64,000 bases of DNA, from contig CALMRZ010000046.1 in assembly GCA_937872225.1 (NCBI GenBank), positions 124,001 through 188,000 on the forward strand, read 5' to 3'. Of the stretch, positions 2,445-49,844 are shown piece after piece. The position numbers and the translations under genes were made by a program. The notes beneath the pieces were generated by a model. It was given only the letters and a program-made list of their open reading frames with translations, was not told where the DNA came from and did no database searches. Within the stretch, counting starts at the first letter, position 1. Every line of letters begins with the position of its first letter. Source of the DNA: an uncultured Spirochaetota bacterium. GTDB lineage: Bacteria > Spirochaetota > UBA4802 > UBA5550.

Positions 2445-3863
2445 TCAATCCATTTCCTTCCCGAACATGCGGTATCGGAGCCGGAGAAGCGTCCGGAACA
2501 TCGGTTCGGTGAGCCGCCCCTCCTCCCTCATCCTTATCGCCTCGCGCATCATTTCTGGGGAAGGCGTCGTCTCCATGACCGGGACGCAATTGGGTCGTGA
2601 AAGGGAATTCGTTTTTATTATTTCAAGAAGTCGCTCCTTCCCGATGGCGGGTGAGATATAGAACCTGGCACCCGTGAGATCGTCATCGGTACCGACCATG
2701 CCGTCTTCAAGCGCGCGACGGTGCAGCACGGTTCCGGGATAGATGCGCATCCCGCAGGTCATGTGGACCATGTCTTTTGCGCTGATGCAGGTATCAATGA
2801 ATTCAAAGGATTCCATGACGGTTTCTTCGGTCTCACCGGGTCCGCCGAAAATAAAAAACCACATGGTAGGCATGTCGGCTTCGCGGATGATGCGCGCTGC
2901 GTTTTTGAGGTCGGCAAGGGTGAAATTCTTTCCGAGCGTGGCCAGCATCGATGGCGACGCGGTGTCAGGGGTGCAGTCTATCTGCGCGAACCCGGCATCG
3001 CGCATCAGCCCGAACAGCTCCGGTGACGCGTTGCACGGGTTGATGCCCATGGTCCTGAGTCTCACGGACAGGCCGAGCCTTATTATTTCGCGGCAGACCG
3101 CTTCCGCGTGGCCGGGGGGATCATTGAATGTTGAGTCGACAAATTCGAATGTTACCTGCCCGAGGCGACCCGCTGCCTGCCTTATTTCCTCGGCGATCAG
3201 CTCCGGCGGCCTGGTCCTGTACCGGTATCCTTCTATGCAGTTGTACGTGCAGTAAACACAGCGGTGGGAGCACCCGCGCTTGGTCTGTACCGGGTATGAA
3301 CTCCGGGCCCGGTACGGGGAGTAATCGAGCCGGAGGTCTATATTGGAGAACGGAACATGTTCCATGGGGAAGTCCGTCAAGCGACGGTGATACTTTTTTG
3401 AATTCTTCGTGAGTACCGACGGAATGGCCGAAACGTCACCGCCGCCATCGAGACAGTGCAGCAGGTGGGCAAACGCCGCCTCGGCCTCGCCGAAGATGCC
3501 GTAATCGGCCCCGTAATAAGTCATGAAATATTCGGGGAATATGCTGAAGGCGCTCCCGCCGAGGATAAGCGGCGCCCCGGTGGAATTCCTGATCGGTTGT
3601 ATGAAGTTTTCCCGAATGGGATCTATGTAATTGGTCGGGTCGAGAAGGTCCATGTCATCAATATTGCGGATTGAAACGCCGATATAGTCGGGGGCGAATT
3701 CGTCAATGGCGTCGTGAAGCCCGTTCCCCGCATCAAAGGCGCCGTCGTATATCTTGACCGCGTAGTTGTTTTCGAGGACCCCGGCGATAAGACACAGGCC
3801 GAGGGGCGGCACCGGGTATGGGCTTTGCTCCGTATTGGTATTAACGAGAAGCACTTTTTTCAT
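2445..3863 (-). CDS. Radical SAM protein with B12-binding-type N-terminal domain
   Basis: The protein has 472 residues. The N-terminal Rossmann-like domain (KKVLLVNTNTEQSPYPVPPL, then LGGSAFSIFPE and YGIFGEAE) is typical of cobalamin-binding radical SAM proteins of the BchE class. No DxHxxG axial-ligand motif is visible, so cobalamin binding is uncertain. The radical SAM core carries the cluster motif CSHRCVYC (C198, C202, C205). A GGPGETEE segment resembles the usual SAM-binding region. Related proteins carry out C-methylations, cyclisations and other radical chemistry on lipids, polyketides or tetrapyrroles. It lies 42 bases downstream of the 3-hydroxyacyl-CoA dehydrogenase gene on the same strand, at the edge of the fatty-acid/polyketide-like cluster. 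The substrate is unknown. Confidence 0.85.
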   Translation of the reverse strand: MKKVLLVNTNTEQSPYPVPPLGLCLIAGVLENNYAVKIYDGAFDAGNGLHDAIDEFAPDYIGVSIRNIDDMDLLDPTNYIDPIRENFIQPIRNSTGAPLILGGSAFSIFPEYFMTYYGADYGIFGEAEAAFAHLLHCLDGGGDVSAIPSVLTKNSKKYHRRLTDFPMEHVPFSNIDLRLDYSPYRARSSYPVQTKRGCSHRCVYCTYNCIEGYRYRTRPPELIAEEIRQAAGRLGQVTFEFVDSTFNDPPGHAEAVCREIIRLGLSVRLRTMGINPCNASPELFGLMRDAGFAQIDCTPDTASPSMLATLGKNFTLADLKNAARIIREADMPTMWFFIFGGPGETEETVMESFEFIDTCISAKDMVHMTCGMRIYPGTVLHRRALEDGMVGTDDDLTGARFYISPAIGKERLLEIIKTNSLSRPNCVPVMETTPSPEMMREAIRMREEGRLTEPMFRTLLRLRYRMFGKEMD

Positions 3864-3905: not shown

Positions 3906-5042
3906 TCACAATAACAGTGAAGGCCGATATGCTTCAAAACCGGTCTTTGCATAATAACGGTTCAAGAGTCCTTTTATCGCGTCCTGACCTATCTCAACGG
4001 CCAGCGTGAATGGCCCCTTGTCGATGGCCATGTATTCCTTCACGGCATATTCCAGGTCGACCTGCGGCCATATATTTTTTTCCAGGGCCTTGAAGGCCGA
4101 ATTGATATACATGGCCCGGAGGAGAGAAGCTGTCCGGACCTGCACGTCCGCTGCGGGCATTTGGACCGGCGGACCTTCAACGGGATACGGGTAAAACCCG
4201 GCCCCCGACTTGCGGCCGAGTTTTTTCTCCCCGAGGAGACTGTCGAGACAATCGATCATCGGGCTGTAGAAATCACTGTCTGCCATGGTCCCGGTGTAAT
4301 TGACGATTGACCGGCGCATCACATCTATTCCCACGGCGTCAAAGAACTCGAAAACGCCGACGGGGAATATGTATTTCCTGACTATTGCGTCAATGACTTT
4401 TACGTCAAGTCCGTCGTCACGGTGGCAGCGAAAGGCCTGGGCCTGGAAATCGAGGAACAGCCTGTTCAGCATGAAGGCTTCGTCTTCATGCATTTCCAGT
4501 CGGAATCTGTCAATGTAATCCGTGAAGTCCCTTACTATCCTTTTCGTGTCCTCGCCGGTATGATCGGTTACGATCAGTTCAACGATGTTCTTCATTTTTA
4601 CCGGGTAGAAAAAATGTAGACCGGCGAAACGTTTCCTCATTGCTTCATCGCTGACGAGGAGTGACGGTTGTATCGATGATGTATTGGTAACCACTACGGC
4701 ATTATTACTGAGGAAAGGCCGCAGATCATCAAAGAGCCTGGCCTTGTCAGCGGCTTCCTCATGGATGGTTTCAATGACGATGCTGCAATCCTTGAGGTCG
4801 CCTATGGAAGTTGAAATCAGCACCCGCTGCTTTTTGCGGCGAAGGCCTTCTTCGTCTATCAGTCCATTCCTGAACATGCGGTCGTACTTTTTTTTGAATG
4901 CAGACACCAGGCGGCGGCGCTCCTCTTCATCGATGCATATCCAGACAAGGCGGCAATCAAAACCGGACAGATAGTAGAATATATCGGTCCCCATGAGGCC
5001 GCTGCCGATTATGCCGATTTGTATGTCTGGCGGTAATGACAT
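3906..5042 (-). CDS. 3-hydroxyacyl-CoA dehydrogenase family protein
   Basis: This 378-residue NAD-dependent dehydrogenase is related to HadH/FadB-type enzymes. Features are the N-terminal dinucleotide motif GIIGSGLMG, the NTSSIQPS segment, the catalytic His in GLHFFYPVKMKN with the following VELI, and the C-terminal helical domain ending in LGRKSGAGFYPY. Such enzymes interconvert 3-hydroxyacyl- and 3-oxoacyl-CoA. The C-terminus continues about 80 residues past the GRKSGAGFY motif, somewhat like the long form with a second C-terminal module. The gene is divergent from the thioesterase/crotonase genes across a 174-base gap and precedes a radical SAM gene. I infer that it provides the ketoreduction or oxidation step of the surrounding acyl pathway. 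Confidence 0.88.
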   Translation of the reverse strand: MSLPPDIQIGIIGSGLMGTDIFYYLSGFDCRLVWICIDEEERRRLVSAFKKKYDRMFRNGLIDEEGLRRKKQRVLISTSIGDLKDCSIVIETIHEEAADKARLFDDLRPFLSNNAVVVTNTSSIQPSLLVSDEAMRKRFAGLHFFYPVKMKNIVELIVTDHTGEDTKRIVRDFTDYIDRFRLEMHEDEAFMLNRLFLDFQAQAFRCHRDDGLDVKVIDAIVRKYIFPVGVFEFFDAVGIDVMRRSIVNYTGTMADSDFYSPMIDCLDSLLGEKKLGRKSGAGFYPYPVEGPPVQMPAADVQVRTASLLRAMYINSAFKALEKNIWPQVDLEYAVKEYMAIDKGPFTLAVEIGQDAIKGLLNRYYAKTGFEAYRPSLLL

Positions 5043-5216: not shown

Positions 5217-5600
5217 ATGTCCTTTGAATATCCGATAACAGTCCGCGGCTATGAGATGGATTCCTTCGGCCATGTCAACAACGCGGTGTATCTCAATTAC
5301 ATGGAACAGGCCCGCTGGGAAATCCTTAAAAAACGCGAACTCTTCGACTATTTCAGGGAACACGGGCTTGTCCTGGTGGTGACCGATGCGATGGTGCATT
5401 ATTCCAGGGAAGCGAAGGTCTTTGACGAACTGGTCGTCTGCACCGATATTGAACGTGACCCTCCCTATCTTGTATTCGATCAGGTCATCAGGGACGCGGC
5501 TTCAGGATCAGTGATTACCCGCGGTACCGTCAAAACTCTCCTGGTCGACAGCGATAGAATACCCCATGATATTCCCGATTTCTTTTTGACCGGGAGATAA
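5217..5600 (+). CDS. Hotdog-fold acyl-CoA thioesterase (4HBT/YbgC family)
   Basis: The protein has 127 residues and the usual start of this family: FEYPITVRGYEMDSFGHVNN followed by AVYLNYMEQARWE. The conserved Asp (YEMDSFGHVNN) and the tyrosine-rich helix are intact. Members hydrolyse acyl-CoA or acyl-ACP thioesters in the cytoplasm. The start at ATG 5217 is preceded by AGGTAA. The frame is open back to 5166, but the extra residues show no family similarity and overlap a putative promoter. It is the first gene of a plus-strand set with two crotonases and a KAS III-like protein. It may release or edit the acyl product of the cluster. Confidence 0.88.
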   Translation: MSFEYPITVRGYEMDSFGHVNNAVYLNYMEQARWEILKKRELFDYFREHGLVLVVTDAMVHYSREAKVFDELVVCTDIERDPPYLVFDQVIRDAASGSVITRGTVKTLLVDSDRIPHDIPDFFLTGR

Positions 5601-5610
5601 GTGCAGAACC

Positions 5611-6342
5611 ATGGGCAGGCAAACGATATCAACTTTCAAAGTCCGGGATTCTATCGCTATCATAACGATCGACAACCCTCCTCAAAACATGCTCCCTGAC
5701 CCGGTTTTTATCGATCCGGAACTGATCAAACGATGCTTCGCTGATGACAAGATCAAGGGCATCGTCATCGCCGGTAAAGGTAGGCATTTCTCCGCGGGAG
5801 CCGACATGGAACGCCTGCGGTTCCTTGCCCTGGATGAGAACCGGTTCATGGCCAGGCTCCGGGACGGGAAAGAGCTCCTCGATTCGATCGAGGCCCTCCC
5901 CATCCCTTCTATCGCCGCCATTGAAGGCGCCTGTTTCGGCGGCGGCCTTGAGATAGCGCTTGCCTGCCATATCAGGGTCTGTGCCCGTAATGCCATCCTC
6001 GCCTTCCCCGAAGTCAATCACGGGCTCATGCCCGGCATGGGGGGCACGGTCCGTCTTCCCGGTTTTATAGGATACGGGAAGGCCCTGGAAGCCGTTCTCT
6101 CGGGTGATATCATCGGCGCGGAACGAGCCCTCGAGATCGGTCTGGCTGACCATCTGGCTCCGGCGAAGGAAACGCTGGATTTTTCCCTGCAACTTATGAA
6201 AAAAATGGTTGCTGACAGGCCCATTGAAGTGATTCGATCCATCGTGCATTCGCTGAATAACAGCCGCACCATGGCAGCTTCCGAAGCCATGGAAGAAGAG
6301 ACAAGAATGTTCTGCAGGCTTGCGGGGAAATTGAATGGCTAA
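5611..6342 (+). CDS. Enoyl-CoA hydratase/isomerase family protein (crotonase)
   Basis: This is a 243-residue crotonase. Oxyanion-hole segments are HFSAGADM and GACFGGGLE. Both glutamates used by hydratases appear to be present: one in FPEVNHGLMPG, the other in KALEAVLSGD. This fits reversible hydration of 2-enoyl-CoA or a related thioester reaction. It begins 10 bases after the thioesterase and overlaps the next crotonase by 8 bases. Crotonases also carry out decarboxylation and isomerisation, so the exact reaction cannot be read from the sequence. Confidence 0.9.
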   Translation: MGRQTISTFKVRDSIAIITIDNPPQNMLPDPVFIDPELIKRCFADDKIKGIVIAGKGRHFSAGADMERLRFLALDENRFMARLRDGKELLDSIEALPIPSIAAIEGACFGGGLEIALACHIRVCARNAILAFPEVNHGLMPGMGGTVRLPGFIGYGKALEAVLSGDIIGAERALEIGLADHLAPAKETLDFSLQLMKKMVADRPIEVIRSIVHSLNNSRTMAASEAMEEETRMFCRLAGKLNG

Positions 6343-7026
6343 TCCTACATGGCATATTGAAGATTCAATCGGTCATATCGTTTTGAACGATCAGCCGTCC
6401 AACCGGATGACACGCTTTTTTTTTCTGAACTGAAGCGGCTCACCGAGGAAGTCATCCCAGGATCCGGCGTTTCCGGCATTGTTATCCACGGCTCGGGCCG
6501 TCATTTTTCATCCGGCGCTGACCTTGACGACATCATCGGCGCCATAAAGGAAAACGCGGTTCACGAATGCCTGCTGTACGAAGAGAGGCGACCGTCGACG
6601 CTTCTCGACAATCTGATGACGTTCAGGTTCTTTGAAGATCTTGAAATCCCCGTCGTTGCCGCTATCAGGGGTGTCTGTCTCGGATCAGCCTTGGAACTTG
6701 CCCTCTTCTGCCACTGCCGCATCTGCGGCGAAGGATCGGTCCTCGGCCTGCCTGAAGCGACGTTCGGGCTCCTCCCGGGATGCGGCGGCATTCAGAAATT
6801 GAGGGCCCTGACTGGGCTACCGCGGGCGTTGGAACTTATTCTGTCCGGCACCACCTTCAGCACTGATGATGCTTTGCGGTGGGGCATAATCGATTCCATT
6901 GTGCCGAAAGAGAGCACGGTCGGCGCGGCCGTTAATTTTATCAGGGCCGTCGGCAGCTCATACCAGCGGGCCTGTATCGGAAGCTACATCCATAAGTATC
7001 TGCGGAGGGACGGGTGGCACCCATGA
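6335..7026 (+). CDS. Second crotonase (enoyl-CoA hydratase-like), frameshifted at a T9 run
   Basis: ATG 6335 opens a frame that begins as a crotonase (MANPTWHIEDSIGHIVLND, then QPSNRMTR) but stops at TGA 6431. After a run of nine T (6416-6424) the -1 frame continues as a typical crotonase (FSELKRLTEEV, RHFSSGADL, GVCLGSALEL, LPEATFGLLPG, ALELILSGT) to 7026. A single -1 slip, or a 7- or 10-T run, would give one protein of about 230 residues. The two catalytic glutamate positions look intact in the second part. The usual GGG of the oxyanion helix reads GSA. It may be a sequencing error, a recent pseudogene, or a slippage-expressed gene. It overlaps both neighbours. Confidence 0.75.
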
Positions 7027-8138
7027 CGGCGGGACTACATGTAAAGATAACAGGGAGCGGCTCCTTTTTGCCGGGTGAACCGGTACCGTTTGATGACATA
7101 GACCGATTCCTCGGGCCGATTACCGGCGCGCCGGCGAAAGTGATGAAGTGGCTTGAACGGATACGGCCGCTCATGAAAGAAATGCTCGACATCGGGCAGT
7201 ATCATTACGCCATTGATCCGATAACCAGGGAATTCACCGATGATAACGTGTCGATGTCAGTAAAGGCGGCCCGGAAGGCCCTTGAAGCGGCTGGCATTGC
7301 GCCGACCGATGTCGACCTCATCGTGTACGGCAGCGCCCACATGGACCAGATGCCGACGCCGTCCGTGAGGATCCAGGAGGCTCTGGGGATCGAGCGGTGC
7401 GCCGAGCTGTCCATACACGCCAACTGCACCTCGGCGTATAAGGCCCTTCTTATCGCAGGAGACCTCATCAGGAACGGACGCTACCGAAATGCCCTGGTGC
7501 TGTCTTCAGGGATATCCTCGTCGGAATTAAGGGCTGAATATTACAACCAGCCCCTTATTAAAAAAGAAGACCTCTTTCTCCGCTGGTTCCTCTGCGACGG
7601 AGCCGGGGGCCTCGTTCTCCAGGGGTGTGACGATATGACAGGTGGCCTGTTTCTTGAACATGCCTACATGGAATCCATCGGCGGCAATAAACCGGCTTCC
7701 ATGGGCAATCAGCGGCCCGCCTACTGGATGAACCCCCGAGATGAATATGAACGGGGCTGCCATCACCTTGCCCAGATGTTCCAGCACCTCCAGTCATATT
7801 TTCACGATCCGGACGGTACCGTTTTCTGCAAGGGCCTCAGGCGGATGCTGGAAACGTGCCATATCGATCTTTCCCGGCTCCGCTTCTTCCAGGTGAACCT
7901 TCCCTCCAGGCATATATCCGACCTTGTTCTTGAAGAATGTGTATCCCTGGGAATTCCCCCGGATACGCTTTATACCAAGATGTCGAAAATGGGATATCCG
8001 GGCCCCCCCATGGCATTCATCTGCCTCGACACGATCATGCGCGAAGAGAAGCTGGATGACGGCGACCTGGTGCTGAGCTTCGTCACCGAGGTGAGCAAGT
8101 TCATGCAGGCGGGATACGCCCTGCGCTATTGCGGCTGA
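7023..8138 (+). CDS. KAS III-like (FabH-type thiolase superfamily) protein lacking canonical His/Asn
   Basis: The protein has 371 residues and the thiolase-superfamily layout of beta-ketoacyl-ACP synthase III. The nucleophile Cys lies at about residue 135 in HANCTSAYKAL. In FabH the other catalytic residues sit in PHQAN and HGNTSAAS. Here the matching segments read FFQVNL and MGYPGPPM, so both His and Asn appear to be replaced. Such enzymes may use another chemistry, for example acyl transfer, or pair with a partner subunit. The ATG at 7023 overlaps the previous stop (ATGA). A GTG at 7014 is also possible, and GGAGGG at 7004-7009 could serve either. It is the last gene of the plus-strand set and converges on a radical SAM gene. 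Confidence 0.82.
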   Translation: MTAGLHVKITGSGSFLPGEPVPFDDIDRFLGPITGAPAKVMKWLERIRPLMKEMLDIGQYHYAIDPITREFTDDNVSMSVKAARKALEAAGIAPTDVDLIVYGSAHMDQMPTPSVRIQEALGIERCAELSIHANCTSAYKALLIAGDLIRNGRYRNALVLSSGISSSELRAEYYNQPLIKKEDLFLRWFLCDGAGGLVLQGCDDMTGGLFLEHAYMESIGGNKPASMGNQRPAYWMNPRDEYERGCHHLAQMFQHLQSYFHDPDGTVFCKGLRRMLETCHIDLSRLRFFQVNLPSRHISDLVLEECVSLGIPPDTLYTKMSKMGYPGPPMAFICLDTIMREEKLDDGDLVLSFVTEVSKFMQAGYALRYCG

Positions 8139-8164: not shown

Positions 8165-9505
8165 TCAGATGACATCCATGCCTTTCTTGATGAGCCAGAG
8201 CCTTCCGACGTTTTCATAGAACTTCTCAGCCGGCAGGGCGGTTTTAAACACGCAGTTGAAGAAATTGTATTTGGCAAGGTCAAAATCGATGATGCGGTCC
8301 CGCGTATCCTCAAAAAACCCTGTCCCGGGCATGGGCGTCAGAATGGTGTATCCCGCGTAAACCACCCTGTGGGACCCGGCGTAGTCCGCCATGACGTTAA
8401 AGTCATCACGGGTGTAATCGGCCGGTATCACGTAGTTTCCCCGCACCATGATGCCGTTGTCGTGAAAAACCGAAATGGCGTTCTCTATGAGCCGCGCCGG
8501 CGCTTCTTTCCGGTATCTCAGGAGCTCGTCTTCCTTGAATGATTCAAAACCGCAGATCACGACCTTCAGGCCGCCCTTGGCGAGTTTTTCGATCAGCTTC
8601 GGATATCGTGCCGCCGTGTCGAAGCGGATATCCATGATGAAGAATTTGTGGATGCCCTCTTCACGGATTCGATCGAAGAGACGGTCGATGAAGCGCTCAT
8701 TCACGATGGTATTGGCGTCGGCGAAGCGCACCACGGGATAGTCGTCCACCATCTTAAGCTCGGTTATGACGCTCTCAACGTCGCGCTGATAATAGCGCCC
8801 GCCGAACTGGGACCAGATCGAGCAGAAGGTGCAGCGATAGGGACAGCCGAGGGAGGTGAAAATATATGTGCTGGGATGGGGGGAGCCTCCGGCGCAATAG
8901 GTGGATATCCAGCGCTTCAGGTGCGAGCGGTCAGGGAGAATATAATCCGCGCCGGCCGCGTCCCAGGCGGTTTCCGCCGTCCCGGTGAATTCCAAACCAT
9001 GATCGGTATTGTTGAATATCCCCCGGACCTTCTCCCGGGGAATGCCCTTTTCAAGCGCCCTCACCAGTTCCATGAATATGCCGGCGCACTGTCCCGGCAT
9101 GACAACATCAACGGCCCTGTCACTGAAATCGTGCGGGCATACCGTGGCATGGAGGCCGCCGGCGACGGTGACAATGGCCGGGTCATGGCGCTTGACGGCC
9201 TGTAATATATCAACGGCATAGGGAACTTCCGAGGCGATGACCGTTATCCCCACGATATCAGGCTTGAAGTCCTCCAGGTGGCGGGTGACCATCACATCGA
9301 TGGCGGGTGCCTCCGGTACCAGGTCGTATTCTCCCTTCATGTCCAGGACCCTGACATCGTGGTCACGGGCCGCGGCCGCTATGGTAATAAGGCCCAATGG
9401 CGGACCGATCAATTTTTTATGGATAAAGCGCTTCGCTTCTTCCGGGGCGTGGTCAAGTATGCTGTTGTGGGGCGACCGCGGCGGATTTACGAGGAGGATC
9501 TTCAT
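8165..9505 (-). CDS. Radical SAM protein with B12-binding-type N-terminal domain
   Basis: The protein has 446 residues. The N-terminus (MKILLVNPPRSP, then GPPLGL and VAGGLHATVCP) is the classical start of cobalamin-binding radical SAM proteins. The 4Fe-4S motif CPYRCTFC lies at residues 221-228, followed by a normal TIM-barrel core. The cobalamin-ligand DxHxxG motif is not visible. It starts 5 bases after the acyltransferase stop, so it belongs to the KS-ACP-AT-radical SAM minus-strand operon. I infer that it modifies the acyl chain made by these enzymes, or a product derived from it. Methylation, cyclisation and desaturation are all possible. Confidence 0.87.
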   Translation of the reverse strand: MKILLVNPPRSPHNSILDHAPEEAKRFIHKKLIGPPLGLITIAAAARDHDVRVLDMKGEYDLVPEAPAIDVMVTRHLEDFKPDIVGITVIASEVPYAVDILQAVKRHDPAIVTVAGGLHATVCPHDFSDRAVDVVMPGQCAGIFMELVRALEKGIPREKVRGIFNNTDHGLEFTGTAETAWDAAGADYILPDRSHLKRWISTYCAGGSPHPSTYIFTSLGCPYRCTFCSIWSQFGGRYYQRDVESVITELKMVDDYPVVRFADANTIVNERFIDRLFDRIREEGIHKFFIMDIRFDTAARYPKLIEKLAKGGLKVVICGFESFKEDELLRYRKEAPARLIENAISVFHDNGIMVRGNYVIPADYTRDDFNVMADYAGSHRVVYAGYTILTPMPGTGFFEDTRDRIIDFDLAKYNFFNCVFKTALPAEKFYENVGRLWLIKKGMDVI

Positions 9506-9510
9506 GTATG

Positions 9511-10509
9511 TTAATAGTTCATCGCCCTGGCTGACGAGCAGACCCTGTCCGAGGACAGGAGAAGGCGAAGATTCTGAAGGTTGTACACATCGAAATCGCC
9601 GTCAATGAACTTTGCCATTCTCTGTAGGCTCCTGCCGGGACCGCACTCAACGAACACATCGACGCCGGCATCGATCATGACGCTCATCGTTTCCAGCCAG
9701 TTGATGTTGCGGTTAATGTTGTCTACGAGGTCCCTGGCAACATCGCGCCACGAGGTCATGATGCGCCGGTCAACGGTGGATATGACCGGATACACCGGGT
9801 CGTATATCGTAAGCGTTCCGCAGTATTCCCGGAATTTTTCCGCGGCTCCATCCATAAACCGGGAGTGATACGGCGAATGGAACGTGAGATATTTGCAGTT
9901 AATCGCTCCCTGCTCTTTTGCCCGGGAAAGGACATGTTTCACGTTCTTTTCATATCCGGCTATGTGCAGATTATGGCGGTTGTTGACATTGATGATCTCT
10001 ATCTCACTGTTCCCGTCGATAAGGGCTATCGCTTCCTCCCGGGTGAGCCCTGAAATCACGCCGATACCGAACGGCAGGGATGCGGCAACGTCCCTGATGC
10101 CCCGGTATGCCGTGGTAATGAGGGAAAGGCCCTGCTCAAAAGTTATGCATTCGGCGTGGCAGAGTGCGGCATAAAGGCCCATGCTGTAACCGGCCGTGAA
10201 ATCGCCATGGAGCCCCGAGCGCTTGAGTACATTGGAGACGGCGCAACTGTACATATACACGGCATACTGCGACTCGAGCTCATCTTCGAAATTGCCGTCG
10301 CGGCAAGAGAGTGTTCTTTCAGCGTTGAGGCCGACTGCGGATGCGGCGCGGGCCGCAAGTTCGCTGAGGTCGCCGGACATCCCCTCAAGCAACCCGCGCT
10401 CATTGCCCAGATATTTGCATCCGAATGCGGGAAAAATGACGGCGGTTTTCTTTCGTTCCACGGTAGTGACCAGCGTGTGCTTATTCCAGCTCGGCGATCC
10501 TGTTCTCAT
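9511..10509 (-). CDS. Acyltransferase of the FabD/PKS AT family
   Basis: This is a free-standing malonyl/acyl transferase. The N-terminal VIFPAFG segment matches the family FPGQG. The nucleophile elbow is GYSMGLYAAL, where FabD usually has GHSxGEYAAL. The carboxylate-binding Arg is in AYRGIRD and the catalytic His in FHSPYHSRFM. The changes in the elbow (His to Tyr, Glu to Leu) may alter the acyl unit used. Arg retention still suggests a dicarboxylic unit such as malonyl. The frame is open to ATG 10509, which overlaps the ACP gene by 29 bases. GTG 10461 would fit the family N-terminus better, but neither start has a clear Shine-Dalgarno. It should load the adjacent ACP. Confidence 0.85.
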   Translation of the reverse strand: MRTGSPSWNKHTLVTTVERKKTAVIFPAFGCKYLGNERGLLEGMSGDLSELAARAASAVGLNAERTLSCRDGNFEDELESQYAVYMYSCAVSNVLKRSGLHGDFTAGYSMGLYAALCHAECITFEQGLSLITTAYRGIRDVAASLPFGIGVISGLTREEAIALIDGNSEIEIINVNNRHNLHIAGYEKNVKHVLSRAKEQGAINCKYLTFHSPYHSRFMDGAAEKFREYCGTLTIYDPVYPVISTVDRRIMTSWRDVARDLVDNINRNINWLETMSVMIDAGVDVFVECGPGRSLQRMAKFIDGDFDVYNLQNLRLLLSSDRVCSSARAMNY

Positions 10510-10786
10510 GCTCGATGATGAGCATGGTCATCCCGATGATCGCGCCGATGGTTTCGGCTGGGTGCTTGACCACATACTTCCCGACGGTCTTCAGTTCCAC
10601 ATTCAGGCCGTACTTTTTCTTGAATATCTCAAGGAGCTCGAGGAACATGAGCGAATCGCCTTCAAGATCCTTGATGACGTTGGTGTCATCCTTTAATTCG
10701 TCAATGGAAACTTCGCATTCTTCGGAAAAGAATTCGTAGACTATCCTTCTGACTTCCTCAACGGTCCCATTTTCTATTTTCGCCAT
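10481..10786 (-). CDS. Acyl carrier protein
   Basis: This 101-residue acidic protein has the 4'-phosphopantetheine attachment Ser in LEGDSLMFLEL. It has a usual ACP-like four-helix pattern plus a hydrophobic C-terminal tail (IIGMTMLIIEHENR) longer than in housekeeping ACP. Position 38-45 matches the DSL motif of carrier proteins. It lies between the ketosynthase and acyltransferase genes on the same strand, so it is probably the dedicated carrier of this cluster rather than the housekeeping AcpP. Confidence 0.9.
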   Translation of the reverse strand: MAKIENGTVEEVRRIVYEFFSEECEVSIDELKDDTNVIKDLEGDSLMFLELLEIFKKKYGLNVELKTVGKYVVKHPAETIGAIIGMTMLIIEHENRIAELE

Positions 10787-10815
10787 AAGAACTCCCGGCC
10801 TGTTTCAAGGTAATG

Positions 10816-12063
10816 CTAATATTTTTTTAATACAATTGTTGCATTATGACCACCAAAAGCAAAAGAGTTGGATATTGCAACATTTATTTTATGGGCCCGA
10901 GAATTATTGGGCACATAGTCAAGATCGAGGTCTGGATCGGGATCGTCATAATTTATCGTCGGTGTTACCATCTGGTAACGTATGCTCAAGGCGGTTATGG
11001 CGGCCTCAATGGCCCCCGCTGCAGCGATGGTGTGCCCCATCATGGATTTTGATGATGTTACCGGTATCGCATAGGCCCTGTCGCCGAAAAGACGCTTTAT
11101 GGCCATGGTCTCATACAGGTCGTTCAGCATGGTGGAAGTCCCGTGTGCGTTGATATAATCCACTTCAGATGGATCAACGCCGGTATTTGCAAGGGCCAGC
11201 TTCATGGTTTCGTACATGCCCTCGCCGTCCTTTTTAGGGGCCATAATGTTGTAGGCCTCGCTGGTCACGGCATAGCCTGCAAATTCGGCAATAACGGGGG
11301 CGTTCCTCTTCGATGCCGATTCCTCGGACTCCAGTATCATGATACCGGCGCCTTCCCCTATTACGAAACCGTCCCTGTCCCTGGAAAAGGGCCTGCTGGC
11401 TTTCCGCGGCGCATCGTTTCTCGTGCTCAGGGCGTACATCTCGTTGAAACTGTTTATCTCCTCCGGGTTAATGGTTGAATCCGCGCCTCCGGTGACGACA
11501 ATATCTGCGGACCCGCTTCGAATCATGTCATAGCCCAGTCCCATGGCGTACGCTGATGAAGCGCAGGCCGTGTTGACCGAGTAACTGGGCCCTTCTATTC
11601 CGTAATGGAGTGATATCCATGCCGGGATGGCGTTGCTCATGGATTTGATTATCCTGTTCCGCGATGCCGCACCCTTCTCCACGCTTGAATTTCCTGTTGA
11701 TACGACGCCCATGATTACGGCGGTGCGCCGCCTGTCAACGGCGTTGAAATCGATGCCGGACAGCTCGATCGCTTCGGAGGCGCATACAAAGGCCATGGCG
11801 GTCACCCGTGTCATCTGGTGGGCAGTGCGTTTCTTGCAGAACGTTGAGGCATAGGCCTCAAACCCGGCCGGGACCTGGGCGGCTATTTTTGTTTCGCAGT
11901 TTGACGCATCAAACAGGGAGATGGGGGCGACACCGCTCTTGCCCGCCGCGAGATTGTTCCAGTTTTCTTCGAGGTTCAAACCCAGGGATGAAATTATATT
12001 CATCCCGGTAATAACGACTTTCCTGCCCATCGGTGCCGATTCCGCGTTTTCATTGTTCAACAT
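10816..12063 (-). CDS. Beta-ketoacyl-ACP synthase (FabF-type KS)
   Basis: This decarboxylating condensing enzyme has an intact Cys-His-His triad: Cys in NTACASSAYAMG, His in NAHGTSTMLND and His in SSKSMMGHTIAAAGAIEA. The C-terminal NSFAFGGHNA is also typical. It catalyses Claisen condensation of acyl with malonyl-ACP in the cytoplasm. The open frame reaches TTG 12105. ATG 12063 (MLNNENAESAPMG) and ATG 12030 (MGRKVVITGM) are both possible, the latter matching the usual family start. It is the first gene of the KS-ACP-AT-radical SAM operon. The dedicated ACP and AT next to it suggest a specialised fatty-acid or polyketide role rather than bulk lipid synthesis. Confidence 0.9.
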   Translation of the reverse strand: MLNNENAESAPMGRKVVITGMNIISSLGLNLEENWNNLAAGKSGVAPISLFDASNCETKIAAQVPAGFEAYASTFCKKRTAHQMTRVTAMAFVCASEAIELSGIDFNAVDRRRTAVIMGVVSTGNSSVEKGAASRNRIIKSMSNAIPAWISLHYGIEGPSYSVNTACASSAYAMGLGYDMIRSGSADIVVTGGADSTINPEEINSFNEMYALSTRNDAPRKASRPFSRDRDGFVIGEGAGIMILESEESASKRNAPVIAEFAGYAVTSEAYNIMAPKKDGEGMYETMKLALANTGVDPSEVDYINAHGTSTMLNDLYETMAIKRLFGDRAYAIPVTSSKSMMGHTIAAAGAIEAAITALSIRYQMVTPTINYDDPDPDLDLDYVPNNSRAHKINVAISNSFAFGGHNATIVLKKY

Positions 12064-12257
12064 TCCGAATGAACTGTTTTTACGCCCACCGTTACATCGT
12101 TTCAACTCATCGGAGTGTTCGATAATCAGCGCAACTACGCAAGAAAAAATTAAAATACTATTTTGTCAAGATTGATTTTAAGATTGGAGAAAAAACCGTA
12201 AAAGATTACACTGATATGATGCTCTATGTTCAGATCAATTGAACTGCCCCGGGTGTT

Positions 12258-14019: not shown

Positions 14020-14541
14020 TCATTCATCCTTTTTCGCTTTCTTTTTCTTCTTCTCTTTGTCCTTTTTTTCTTTTTTAGGCTTGTCTTCTTTCTTCTCTTT
14101 CTTCTCTTTCTTCTCTTTCTTTTCTTCCTTGTCCTTCTTATCTTTCTTAGTTTTTACTTTTTTGTCTTTATCTTCATCTTTCTTTTCTTTTTTATCCTTC
14201 TTTTCTTTCTTTACTTCTTTATCTTCCTTATCCTTTTTGTCTTTTTTAGTCTTTACTTTTTTATCGGCATCTTTGTCTTCTTTGTCTTCTTTATCTTTTT
14301 TGTCTTTTTTCTTTTTATCTTTCTTTGTTTCTTTGTCGCTGTCGTGTTTGCCAGCCAATTCATCGTAACGGGCGCTTTTCGATCTATCAACGATTATCTT
14401 GCCATCTTTATGGTAATGATATTCCTTTTTCTGGTGGTCCCAGTGACCTCCCTCAGAATCCGTTCTTCCACCGTGGGCAAAGGTCATTTCCACGGCAAAA
14501 AATAATAAAAATACTATTAATGCCATTGTTCGAGCCAACAT
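14020..14541 (-). CDS. Exported YHYH-motif protein with long Lys/Asp/Glu-rich tail
   Basis: The protein has 173 residues. A signal peptide (LARTMALIVFLLFFAVEMTF) precedes a short HGGRTDSEGGHWDH...YHYH domain that is common in small exported proteins and may bind metal. The remaining 105 residues are almost only Lys, Asp and Glu. A unit DKKVKTKKDKKDKE occurs twice. The function is unknown; the tail is highly charged and net basic, which could bind anionic envelope polymers. The coding strand is almost pure purine here. An opposite-strand frame rich in Phe and Ser (13994-14368) is a shadow of this gene. Confidence 0.75.
   Translation of the reverse strand: MLARTMALIVFLLFFAVEMTFAHGGRTDSEGGHWDHQKKEYHYHKDGKIIVDRSKSARYDELAGKHDSDKETKKDKKKKDKKDKEDKEDKDADKKVKTKKDKKDKEDKEVKKEKKDKKEKKDEDKDKKVKTKKDKKDKEEKKEKKEKKEKKEDKPKKEKKDKEKKKKKAKKDE
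14025..14340. repeat. Polypyrimidine/polypurine tract with internal repeats
   Basis: The plus strand over about 315 bases is nearly all T and C, encoding the Lys-rich tail on the other strand. Near-repeats of cttttt/ttctt units are frequent. Such strand-asymmetric tracts can mutate in length and can form triplex structures. Confidence 0.7.
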
Positions 14542-39440: not shown

Positions 39441-41681
39441 TTAAAAACAGACGCGGTGCGATGTTTTCCTGCCGGCAGCATCCAGGCAGGGGGCCAGTGC
39501 CGGCCCGCTGAGCCGGAGAGGTATCGTGACGATTGAAGCATCGTTGCGGATGGCAATGCTGAAATTGCTGTTAATGCCGCCCTCATATAAATAATCGCCC
39601 ACGGCGTTGAACATCATCGTGTCGCCTCTGATGCCGAAATTGCTGAACCAGAAGTTTTCCCCCTGTTCCGATACTGAAATAGTCATGTCCTCGAAGGATA
39701 TTTCGGACATGCGGCCATGGTCATAGCCGTTTGTGCGCAGGAATTTGATCAAAGCCTGCTGGACCGGGGTGTTTTTCATTTCACCCTTTCCCACATAGAT
39801 ATTGAAGTGCCCTTTTGCGTTATCGAGCAAATCGCCTATCCGCGCGAAAGAAACTTCGTAGGAAAAGTCAGTCCGCGCCTTGCCGTTCAGGGTTCCGGCG
39901 AGGCCGCTGTCGGCATAAAAGCTTCCAAGGTCGAAATCATCTATTTTACCCTCGATCTTGACATAGGGCTGGTCGCTGTTGAAATATCCCTGGAATGACA
40001 GCCGGTAGTTTGCGTCATACCCGTCCGCCTTGAAATCGTTGACCAGCACCGAGCCCTTCGTCAGCTGCGCCCTGGCGGAGACATTATTGAACCTGCTTTT
40101 TTTCCCGTAAAACACGGTGTCAAAATCGCATTGCAGGTCAATGGTGTTGAGGTTCATGAACCTGCCGAGTGGCCGCTGAAGGAACGGGCGAACGTCAAGG
40201 GCATTCCTTTTGTCTTCATAGGCCGACGCGTACAACCGGTCGGCCCAATACATCGCCGCGTGCTTCAGGTTCAGAAGATTCATTTTTTTCGAATGGACAG
40301 TCATTGTTGTTGCCGATTTAAACGGGATCCATCCCGATATGTCCGTGTTGACTTTCACTGAAAGGTCTGAATGGAGCGGTTTTGCGTTGATATCGATGGT
40401 TATCGACCTGTCATCCAGTGTCAGGGCTGCCATTGATCCATCAATGATCGGCACAATGGTTCCTTTGCTGTTTTGCGACAGGGTGAAATCCTCGAGAAGA
40501 GCCCTGCCCTTCATCACGCCGGACCTGCTGTTTTTGAAATCAAGGGAGATATCTCCGTCGCACTGCAGGGCCCCGCTGTACTCGATGTCCTTGAGGGGCG
40601 TAAGGTACTGGGAAAGATCCCCCAGATCGATCTTATTTGATTTGAATTTCAGCGCCATGGCGTCTTCTTTTTCGTTGCGGACATACTTCCCGGATGCCTC
40701 GATGTCAATCACGTCATCGGAGAGCCTGCAATGCTTGAGCGTGTAACGGTTCAGGGTGTTGTTCACCGCCAGGTCTATGGCAAGATTTACATTTTCATTG
40801 GAAATGATGTTAAACTTTTTATCGAGGGAAACGACTGAAAGAGACCCCGTTTCGACCCTGCCCTTCAGGTATACGACGTTCTTGCTTCTGATCAGCATCA
40901 AATCCGTCGATATGCCGCCTTTCAGGGCGATATCGGCCAGTTTGTAATCCAGAATATATTCATTCAGATACGTGAGATCAAAATTGTCTACCGCAAGCCG
41001 GTGGCTGTAAGATTCATAGGTGCCGATAGTTACGGCTCCCCTGCAGTCAAATGATCCTTTGCCTATGACGTCAGACTGGTACGGCTTGATCCGGCCTGAA
41101 ACAGAATAAGAAAAGTTATTTTTATCGATGTTCATTTCGGCATCGATTTTATACAGCTCCAAAGCTATCTGTTTTGCCTTGAGCGATTCACGATAAATAA
41201 GTTTCGCCCGGTGAAAATCGATATAGAAATCTTCATATTCTTTCCGGGTCCGTTTTATGAATTTGTCGGGATCAAGCACCATGAGTAACGAATCCAGGTG
41301 GCTCCTGCCGTATTTTTTTATGAAGGTGATCTGTGAATTGTAGAAATCGAGCCCTTTGACGCTTATGTTACCGGTGAAGAGCCTGAAGAACCGAAGATTG
41401 ATGACGGCCTTGTCGCTTTTAATGAGGCTGATATTATCATTGAAATCGCTGGTGATCGAAACATCAAGGTCGGAGATTACTATGGTTCCGTCATAATCGA
41501 GATAAATGTCTTCGAACTTGACCGCCTTGTTGAGGTTGTTCTTAAAATAATCGGAAACGACTTCCTTAAGTATCCGGTCTGGAAATACAACGGAAAACAT
41601 AAGCCTGAGTGTTGCCATGCCGTTAACGATCACGAAAAGGACTATAACCGCAATGCCCGCATATTTTTTTTTAAATTTCAT
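39441..41681 (-). CDS. AsmA-like inner-membrane anchored protein
   Basis: The protein has 746 residues. One N-terminal membrane helix (YAGIAVIVLFVIVNGMATL) is followed by a very long beta-strand-rich region with the AsmA/TamB-type pattern. Landmarks are KFEDIYLDYDGTIVISDLDV near the N-terminus and a C-terminal block LLDNAKGHFNIYVGKGEMKN, then FEDMTISVSEQGE and SNFGIRGDTMMFNAVGDY, typical of the AsmA C-terminal module. Proteins of this superfamily are thought to carry phospholipids between membranes. It is monocistronic and converges on the CHASE2 cyclase. Confidence 0.75.
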   Translation of the reverse strand: MKFKKKYAGIAVIVLFVIVNGMATLRLMFSVVFPDRILKEVVSDYFKNNLNKAVKFEDIYLDYDGTIVISDLDVSITSDFNDNISLIKSDKAVINLRFFRLFTGNISVKGLDFYNSQITFIKKYGRSHLDSLLMVLDPDKFIKRTRKEYEDFYIDFHRAKLIYRESLKAKQIALELYKIDAEMNIDKNNFSYSVSGRIKPYQSDVIGKGSFDCRGAVTIGTYESYSHRLAVDNFDLTYLNEYILDYKLADIALKGGISTDLMLIRSKNVVYLKGRVETGSLSVVSLDKKFNIISNENVNLAIDLAVNNTLNRYTLKHCRLSDDVIDIEASGKYVRNEKEDAMALKFKSNKIDLGDLSQYLTPLKDIEYSGALQCDGDISLDFKNSRSGVMKGRALLEDFTLSQNSKGTIVPIIDGSMAALTLDDRSITIDINAKPLHSDLSVKVNTDISGWIPFKSATTMTVHSKKMNLLNLKHAAMYWADRLYASAYEDKRNALDVRPFLQRPLGRFMNLNTIDLQCDFDTVFYGKKSRFNNVSARAQLTKGSVLVNDFKADGYDANYRLSFQGYFNSDQPYVKIEGKIDDFDLGSFYADSGLAGTLNGKARTDFSYEVSFARIGDLLDNAKGHFNIYVGKGEMKNTPVQQALIKFLRTNGYDHGRMSEISFEDMTISVSEQGENFWFSNFGIRGDTMMFNAVGDYLYEGGINSNFSIAIRNDASIVTIPLRLSGPALAPCLDAAGRKTSHRVCF

Positions 41682-49256: not shown

Positions 49257-49844
49257 ATGGCCGCCGTTTTGCGATTCATAAAAAAAAAAATACGCCGTGA
49301 CGACCGCGGGTTCACCCTCATTGAGATCGTGGTCGTCATCGCCATCATTTCTATTCTGTTCATGATAGCTGTCCCCCGTGTAACAAGAATTTTCAGCACC
49401 CAGCGGGAAAACTTCGCCATATTCACCGGGATGATAGCGGCAACCTTTGACGACGCCTTTCTGAAGAACAGGACCGATTTTTTCACCATTTATCTTTCCG
49501 CGCCCGACCCGGAGGATGCCATGGCCCAGAAGGACGTCTTCAACCGTAAGAACGGCCTGGCTGTCCTTAATTACGTTAACGGAGAATTTGTCGACAGCAG
49601 GCGCAACACGCTCAGATTCAAGGAATTTCCCCAGTCGTTCCTCATTGAAGAGGTGGTGACCTCGTCCGGAGAAACCATAACAAACGGGAACGTCATGATA
49701 CCGTTCTACCCACAGGGCTACTCGAACAATTACATAATTCATGTCCTGGTCAACGGCGAGCAGAAATGGTCCGTGCGGATCGACAAGCATCTCAAGGAAC
49801 CGAAAGTGTCAGAGGGTTATGCGACATTTGATATCGAACAGTGA
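49257..49844 (+). CDS. gspH: Type II secretion minor pseudopilin H
   Basis: The protein has 195 residues. It has the cleavage site DRG/FTLIEIVVVIAIISILF and the GspH/FimT-like rest (FAIFTGMIAATFDDAFLKNR). The downstream sequence is not strongly conserved, so the H assignment rests partly on its place between gspG and gspI. The frame is open to 49104, but that region overlaps gspG and shows no similarity; ATG 49257 gives a short basic leader. The reading frame ends at 49844, overlapping gspI by 26 bases. Confidence 0.85.
   Translation: MAAVLRFIKKKIRRDDRGFTLIEIVVVIAIISILFMIAVPRVTRIFSTQRENFAIFTGMIAATFDDAFLKNRTDFFTIYLSAPDPEDAMAQKDVFNRKNGLAVLNYVNGEFVDSRRNTLRFKEFPQSFLIEEVVTSSGETITNGNVMIPFYPQGYSNNYIIHVLVNGEQKWSVRIDKHLKEPKVSEGYATFDIEQ

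Follow-up and report, generated by a model that had tools for sequence, protein, structure and literature searches.

How can a crotonase whose two halves lie in adjacent reading frames be made as a whole enzyme? The question is raised by ECH2, the second of two crotonase genes (6335-7026, forward strand) in a 64,000-nucleotide stretch of DNA from an uncultured Spirochaetota bacterium. This stretch is referred to below as the window, and the assembly that it comes from comprises 4.69 Mb in 95 contigs.

A nine-T run between two crotonase frames

The initial annotation had described two halves of one crotonase in adjacent frames, joined at a homopolymer of nine T, with the first half ending six bases past the run. 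Counting the run and reading both frames gave the same picture, with the junction exactly at the T run (Table 1). From the ATG at 6335 the zero frame translates as MANPTWHIEDSIGHIVLNDQPSNRMTRFFFLN; in the -1 frame 200 codons run without a stop up to the TGA at 7024-7026. The 3′ half alone (P0001) matches Pfam ECH_1 over residues 16-175 (9.4e-27), which places it in the crotonase superfamily. Two of its glutamates, E91 and E111, which we take from the crotonase family to be the catalytic pair, are invariant in a six-row alignment, so the good conservation ascribed earlier to the downstream half, both Glu positions included, was borne out; ECH2 would thus carry the Glu pair of hydratases. The zero-frame codons also set a U_UUU_UUU heptamer of the X_XXY_YYZ type exactly at the junction, the slip site that had been proposed from the codons on the run.

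Table 1. Features of the split crotonase gene and of the surrounding cluster (window coordinates)
Feature	Position	Strand	Remarks
B12-binding radical SAM protein	2445..3863	-	best NCBIfam match TIGR04072, 310 bits against a cut-off of 360
3-hydroxyacyl-CoA dehydrogenase family protein	3906..5042	-	domain match
4HBT thioesterase	5217..5600	+	first of the same-strand group; domain match; in all five relatives
First crotonase, ECH1	5611..6342	+	in frame; stop 6340-6342; 8 nt overlap with ECH2
ECH2, zero-frame 5′ part	6335..6433	+	32 residues, then TGA; N-terminus homologous in 6/6 orthologues
Putative slippage element CGC-TTTTTTTTT-CTGAA	6413..6429	+	identical in six species
Nine-T run	6416..6424	+	exact count 9, from the sequence; also 9 in 6/6 orthologues
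ECH2, -1 frame 3′ part	6424..7026	+	200 residues; crotonase domain; both conserved Glu
Zero-frame stop TGA	6431..6433	+	6 nt past the T run
KAS III-like ketosynthase (StlD/DarB-like)	7023..8138	+	its ATG and the ECH2 stop overlap
Second B12 radical SAM protein, acyltransferase, acyl carrier protein, FabF-like ketosynthase	8165..12105	-	domain matches and synteny

Outside the clade of split genes the homologues are in frame, and no gap is needed to align the -1 product with them. Of 76 non-split loci, 56 were alignable at the junction and were used for the comparison, while 20 distant ones (L099, L102, L104, L106, L107 and L109-L123) were left out as unalignable there. All 56 read through the junction openly, and in every one of the 56 a conserved Asn is spaced from the junction just as it is in the -1 product; nine positions behind this Asn the residue is Glu or Asp in 53 (Ala, Ala and Gln in the others). 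A product made from two T fewer would be one residue shorter. The shared spacing upholds the claim that a -1 slip would restore a full protein, and a single extra base is predicted to return the known full-length form.

Runs of T6-T7 are frequent at the homologous place in these in-frame homologues. Longer runs also occur there in frame, with T8 in L056 and nine T in the Bacteroidales locus L072 (around 5990-6003). Six related crotonase loci, 30-39% identical, lie on IMG/VR viral contigs (L124-L129), and the three of them that were inspected are in frame.

Orthologues and nucleotide conservation at the junction

When the second half of ECH2 was searched against 59 whole genomes (that of the window and those of relatives), five more close matches were found: four come from the same genus and the fifth from a different genus of the family. 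ECH2 is present in 6 of the 20 family genomes searched, the window's own included, and no further orthologue at such similarity was found in the order (46 genomes searched). The five other orthologues are 50-64% identical in protein to the window's ECH2, making six species in all. All six have the same split with exactly nine T, flanked by CGC and CTGAA; the zero-frame stop lies 6 nt past the run in five, and in the sixth a TAG follows at 18 nt. Across 392 Spirochaetota genomes the 17-mer CGC-T9-CTGAA was found in six, once each and always in ECH2, and in none of the other 386, while its reversed-letter control occurred once. Three more homologues under 1e-33 in these 392 genomes, one of them the same record as locus L086, are all in frame. 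Among 80 loci compared, other phyla included, the split was seen in four, all from Spirochaetes. On a tree of 36 hand-picked rows, 6 of them split and 30 in-frame, the split genes cluster together (support 96/91), for which a single origin of the split suffices. As far as sequence can tell, the six orthologues are one clade with one origin and not independent gains.

We then compared codons at the 68 columns in which all six orthologues share one residue and synonymous codons are available. The six consecutive columns at the site, Arg-Phe-Phe-Phe-Ser-Glu, each have a single codon across the six species, as against 6 of the 62 other invariant-residue columns. The chance that these six named columns all fall among the 12 single-codon columns of the 68 is about 8e-6, with neighbouring columns not strictly independent. 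Elsewhere in these genes Phe is written TTT 21 times and TTC 30 times. Synonymous divergence was above 1 or saturated in 30/30 pairwise comparisons (two stretches behind the run), and the lowest dS anywhere, 0.78, belonged to a short N-terminal stretch. For the residues at the site we counted 49 in-frame homologues, setting aside the 7 of 56 that have no Phe-Phe. Opposite the first TTT only one of the 49 has Phe, and at the preceding position five have Arg, from which we conclude that nucleotides, and not amino acids, are conserved at the site; the Phe-Phe codons are TTTTTT in 16 of the 49. Behind the run, the alignment at the sequence level shows protein-level constraint on the -1 frame from its first codon.

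Expression of the split gene and competing explanations

Conservation of the split in six species suggests a built-in slip, made by RNA polymerase (or by the ribosome), that would yield the whole protein. We consider it likely that ECH2 is a real gene expressed through a fixed slippage site, with polymerase slippage on the nine T as the best mechanism. RNA polymerase would slip while copying the nine-T run, the length of which is about that of the RNA-DNA hybrid, and would add one extra U to part of the messages. Messages with the added U would be read into the -1 frame and give the full crotonase (...NRMTRFFFSELK...), and unslipped ones would give a 32-residue peptide, presumably unable to fold as a crotonase. 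A ribosomal -1 slip on U-UUU-UUU may contribute to the output. The T9 of all six orthologues is a run of about nine or more A/T at a frame junction, as in genes of the mxiE type, and the earlier statement that transcriptional slippage on such a run is known elsewhere agrees with passages of PMC1088944 and PMC4256274, the latter of which quotes 20-30% for slippage on the U run of mxiE.

T9/A9 words are not rare in the genome (139 in 4.69 Mb). Forty A/T runs of at least nine were sampled in list order, some near contig ends or other runs being left out, which makes the sample non-random. An open frame contains the run in 18 cases and not in 20, and the remaining two met a loose split rule; by eye, these two looked like sequence upstream of a gene and were rejected as splits. 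None of the 40 sampled runs elsewhere in the genome turned out to be a split comparable to that of ECH2, and a genome-wide habit of gene splitting at T9/A9 was rejected on this count. As such words are not scarce and 18 of the 40 lie in open frames, T9 may cause no more than modest slippage in this organism. In the window, a GspH-like pseudopilin ORF that ends at 49844 and belongs to a type II secretion operon has an A11 run (49280-49290, forward strand) close to its N-terminus, with the frame open through it, and a T9 run at 41664-41672 (A9 in the sense strand) forms part of the first codons of a 746-residue minus-strand ORF that has no Pfam match. A Lys/Asp/Glu-rich low-complexity protein follows a short YHYH-like N-terminal part at 14020-14541 on the minus strand.

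The cluster around ECH2 is of a lipid or polyketide type. By the score of one of its two radical SAM proteins (Table 1) it falls short of a TIGR04072-type (ladderane-associated) lipid cluster, and the ladderane-type clusters described in a passage of PMC2649909 serve as a lead only for its product. The neighbourhood is conserved in the family, and its order is kept in the spirochaete genus. ECH1, ECH2 and the ketosynthase are also adjacent in Bacteroidales, where ECH2 is in frame. The spacing between ECH2 and the ketosynthase varies among the relatives from overlap to 100 nt, so the coupling to the ketosynthase is not uniform. Slippage would limit how much ECH2 is made in comparison with ECH1 and, through the overlapping start and stop codons, may lower translation of the ketosynthase.

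What the run is for is a separate matter. We put forward, tentatively and at well below even odds, that the nine-T run is a dosage device: slippage would set the ratio of ECH2 to its operon partners ECH1 and the ketosynthase, or even sense that ratio through U supply or polymerase speed, and selection would keep ECH2 out of frame and never at full amount. If so, slippage would act as the governor of a biosynthetic pathway, and would do so in bacteria that are presumably free-living, a habit that we assume from genome size and environmental origin. Another view, to which we give a chance a little short of even, is that the split is a frozen accident: an ancestral contraction by one T would have been tolerated through slippage, and the site kept since its loss would kill the gene, with no regulation involved. 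This estimate overlaps with that for polymerase slippage, the mechanism being the same and the role alone being disputed. The single origin on the tree fits such an accident, and the T6-T7 runs common in frame, together with the one in-frame Bacteroidales T9, indicate that a contraction-prone run existed; Blochmannia and Buchnera show rescue of this kind, according to a passage of PMC3017870. Reversion into frame, however, should be a frequent mutation, and although synonymous divergence is saturated it is seen in none of the six lineages. This speaks for an advantage of staying split, while leaving room for a neutral reading.

As to mechanism, both transcriptional and ribosomal slippage had been named at the outset; the evidence leans towards the former and leaves the latter as its main rival. 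Programmed -1 ribosomal frameshifting, in which ribosomes move back by one base on the last two UUU codons, strikes us as unlikely. The heptamer does sit exactly where it would be needed, and a passage of PMC4066793 lists U_UU.U_UU.U among motifs that shift, weakly but above 0.10%, in E. coli with no stimulator, so a ribosomal share is possible. Two of the six downstream regions also fold somewhat better than random (G002 with z -2.8 at 80 nt; G003 with z -2.0 at 50 nt and -2.2 at 120 nt). Most of the six, however, fold close to their shuffles at three window lengths, and no downstream RNA structure is shared among the six orthologues: their common fold has -3.9 kcal/mol and begins 34 nt past the run, and no stimulatory structure about 5-8 nt downstream was found in the six. 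A downstream frameshift stimulator was rejected on the lack of a common fold. Upstream, no conserved Shine-Dalgarno-like element was found, AGGA occurring in only 2/6. Seven T are enough for the heptamer, yet nine are kept in 6/6, in a codon whose residue varies in the in-frame homologues.

Transcriptional slippage is placed first because a ribosomal slip would be expected to have a stimulator, of which none is common to the six, and because nine T are kept where the heptamer needs seven. It is placed first also because slippage on the U run of mxiE has been described and because in many genomes selection against A/T runs begins to show at a length of nine, as a passage of PMC1088944 puts it. 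Hairpins upstream can stimulate polymerase slippage (in a passage of PMC5009743). Upstream of the run no fold beats its shuffles beyond z -1.7 and a terminator scan gave none at the run, and a terminator or hairpin just ahead of it was rejected. The conserved CGC and CTGAA flanks are left unaccounted for by a bare homopolymer model of polymerase slippage.

A phase-variable (contingency) run, on which replication slippage would toggle the gene in the population, is very improbable. The run is indeed a homopolymer in a coding region, near its 5′ end, but a switching locus should vary among species, and the six assemblies, one genome per species, all have nine T and never an in-frame length. Still less credible is a pair of separate genes with the second half made from its own start, even though the halves are separate open frames. 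In the -1 frame no ATG, GTG or TTG lies ahead of the junction in 5/6 species. The first start codon behind the junction in the window is codon 64, and residues 1-63, which a start there would skip, hold invariant positions such as those of the conserved GRHFSSGAD motif. A TTG or GTG lies nearer behind the junction in some relatives (at codon 2 in two), where the residue pattern is conserved in the manner of coding sequence and not of a start. With no start codon to serve the second half, a separate second gene was rejected.

Homopolymers are prone to error in some sequencing methods, but an assembly or sequencing error, or a decaying pseudogene, has next to no probability here and can be excluded, since the relatives, whose T count (7, 9 or 10) and further disabling changes had been suggested as a check, have nine T in all six orthologues and never 7 or 10, four of the six stem from at least three assembly projects, the second frame is open and constrained with no additional disabling change or relaxed constraint in any of the six between the run and the gene end, and the neighbouring cluster is intact.

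If such a site is fixed in a biosynthetic enzyme throughout a spirochaete family, one could ask why selection holds the enzyme out of frame. In addition, automatic annotation may label such genes as pseudogenes and so miss the enzyme in these clusters.

Comparison with known slippage systems

In the open-licence PMC literature we found no report of transcriptional slippage in an enoyl-CoA hydratase, nothing relevant on slippage in biosynthetic gene clusters and, by title and start of abstract, no case of a crotonase frameshift. Judging by passages of the papers cited here, on which all of the following comparisons draw, few non-mobile bacterial genes have conserved slippage sites, and the sites described belong to virulence and secretion genes, to dnaX and to endosymbionts. 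A 2005 survey of 9A/9T runs gave conserved split patterns in seven cases, namely six IS elements and mapW (PMC1088944). Thermus dnaX and the A9 of IS elements (PMC1088944) share with ECH2 a slip site that is a run of nine A or T, but dnaX slips to a shorter product and the IS elements are mobile, unlike ECH2. In Citrobacter rodentium tssM1 (PMC4256274), slippage on an A11 tract restores the full protein, at about 20%; tssM1 codes for a secretion protein that is required in both lengths, whereas ECH2 has T9 and a short product that is a 32-residue peptide.

The rescued poly-A/T genes of Blochmannia and Buchnera (Tamas 2008, Wernegreen 2010, via PMC3017870) are, like ECH2, old homopolymer frameshifts kept with no decay. 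They belong to AT-rich, reduced endosymbiont genomes full of tracts, whereas the six ECH2 loci have 50-56% G+C and their genomes measure 3.6-5.5 Mb. Shigella flexneri mxiE and spa13 (Penno et al. 2005, 2006, via PMC1088944, PMC4256274 and PMC5009743) resemble ECH2 in having two overlapping frames, and in mxiE it is the longer protein, obtained with an extra U, that works; effects on the following gene have also been reported. Slippage was measured in mxiE and spa13, and for ECH2 it is inferred. These two are virulence-plasmid regulators and secretion parts, whereas ECH2 is a biosynthetic enzyme whose split has been kept over synonymous saturation in several species.
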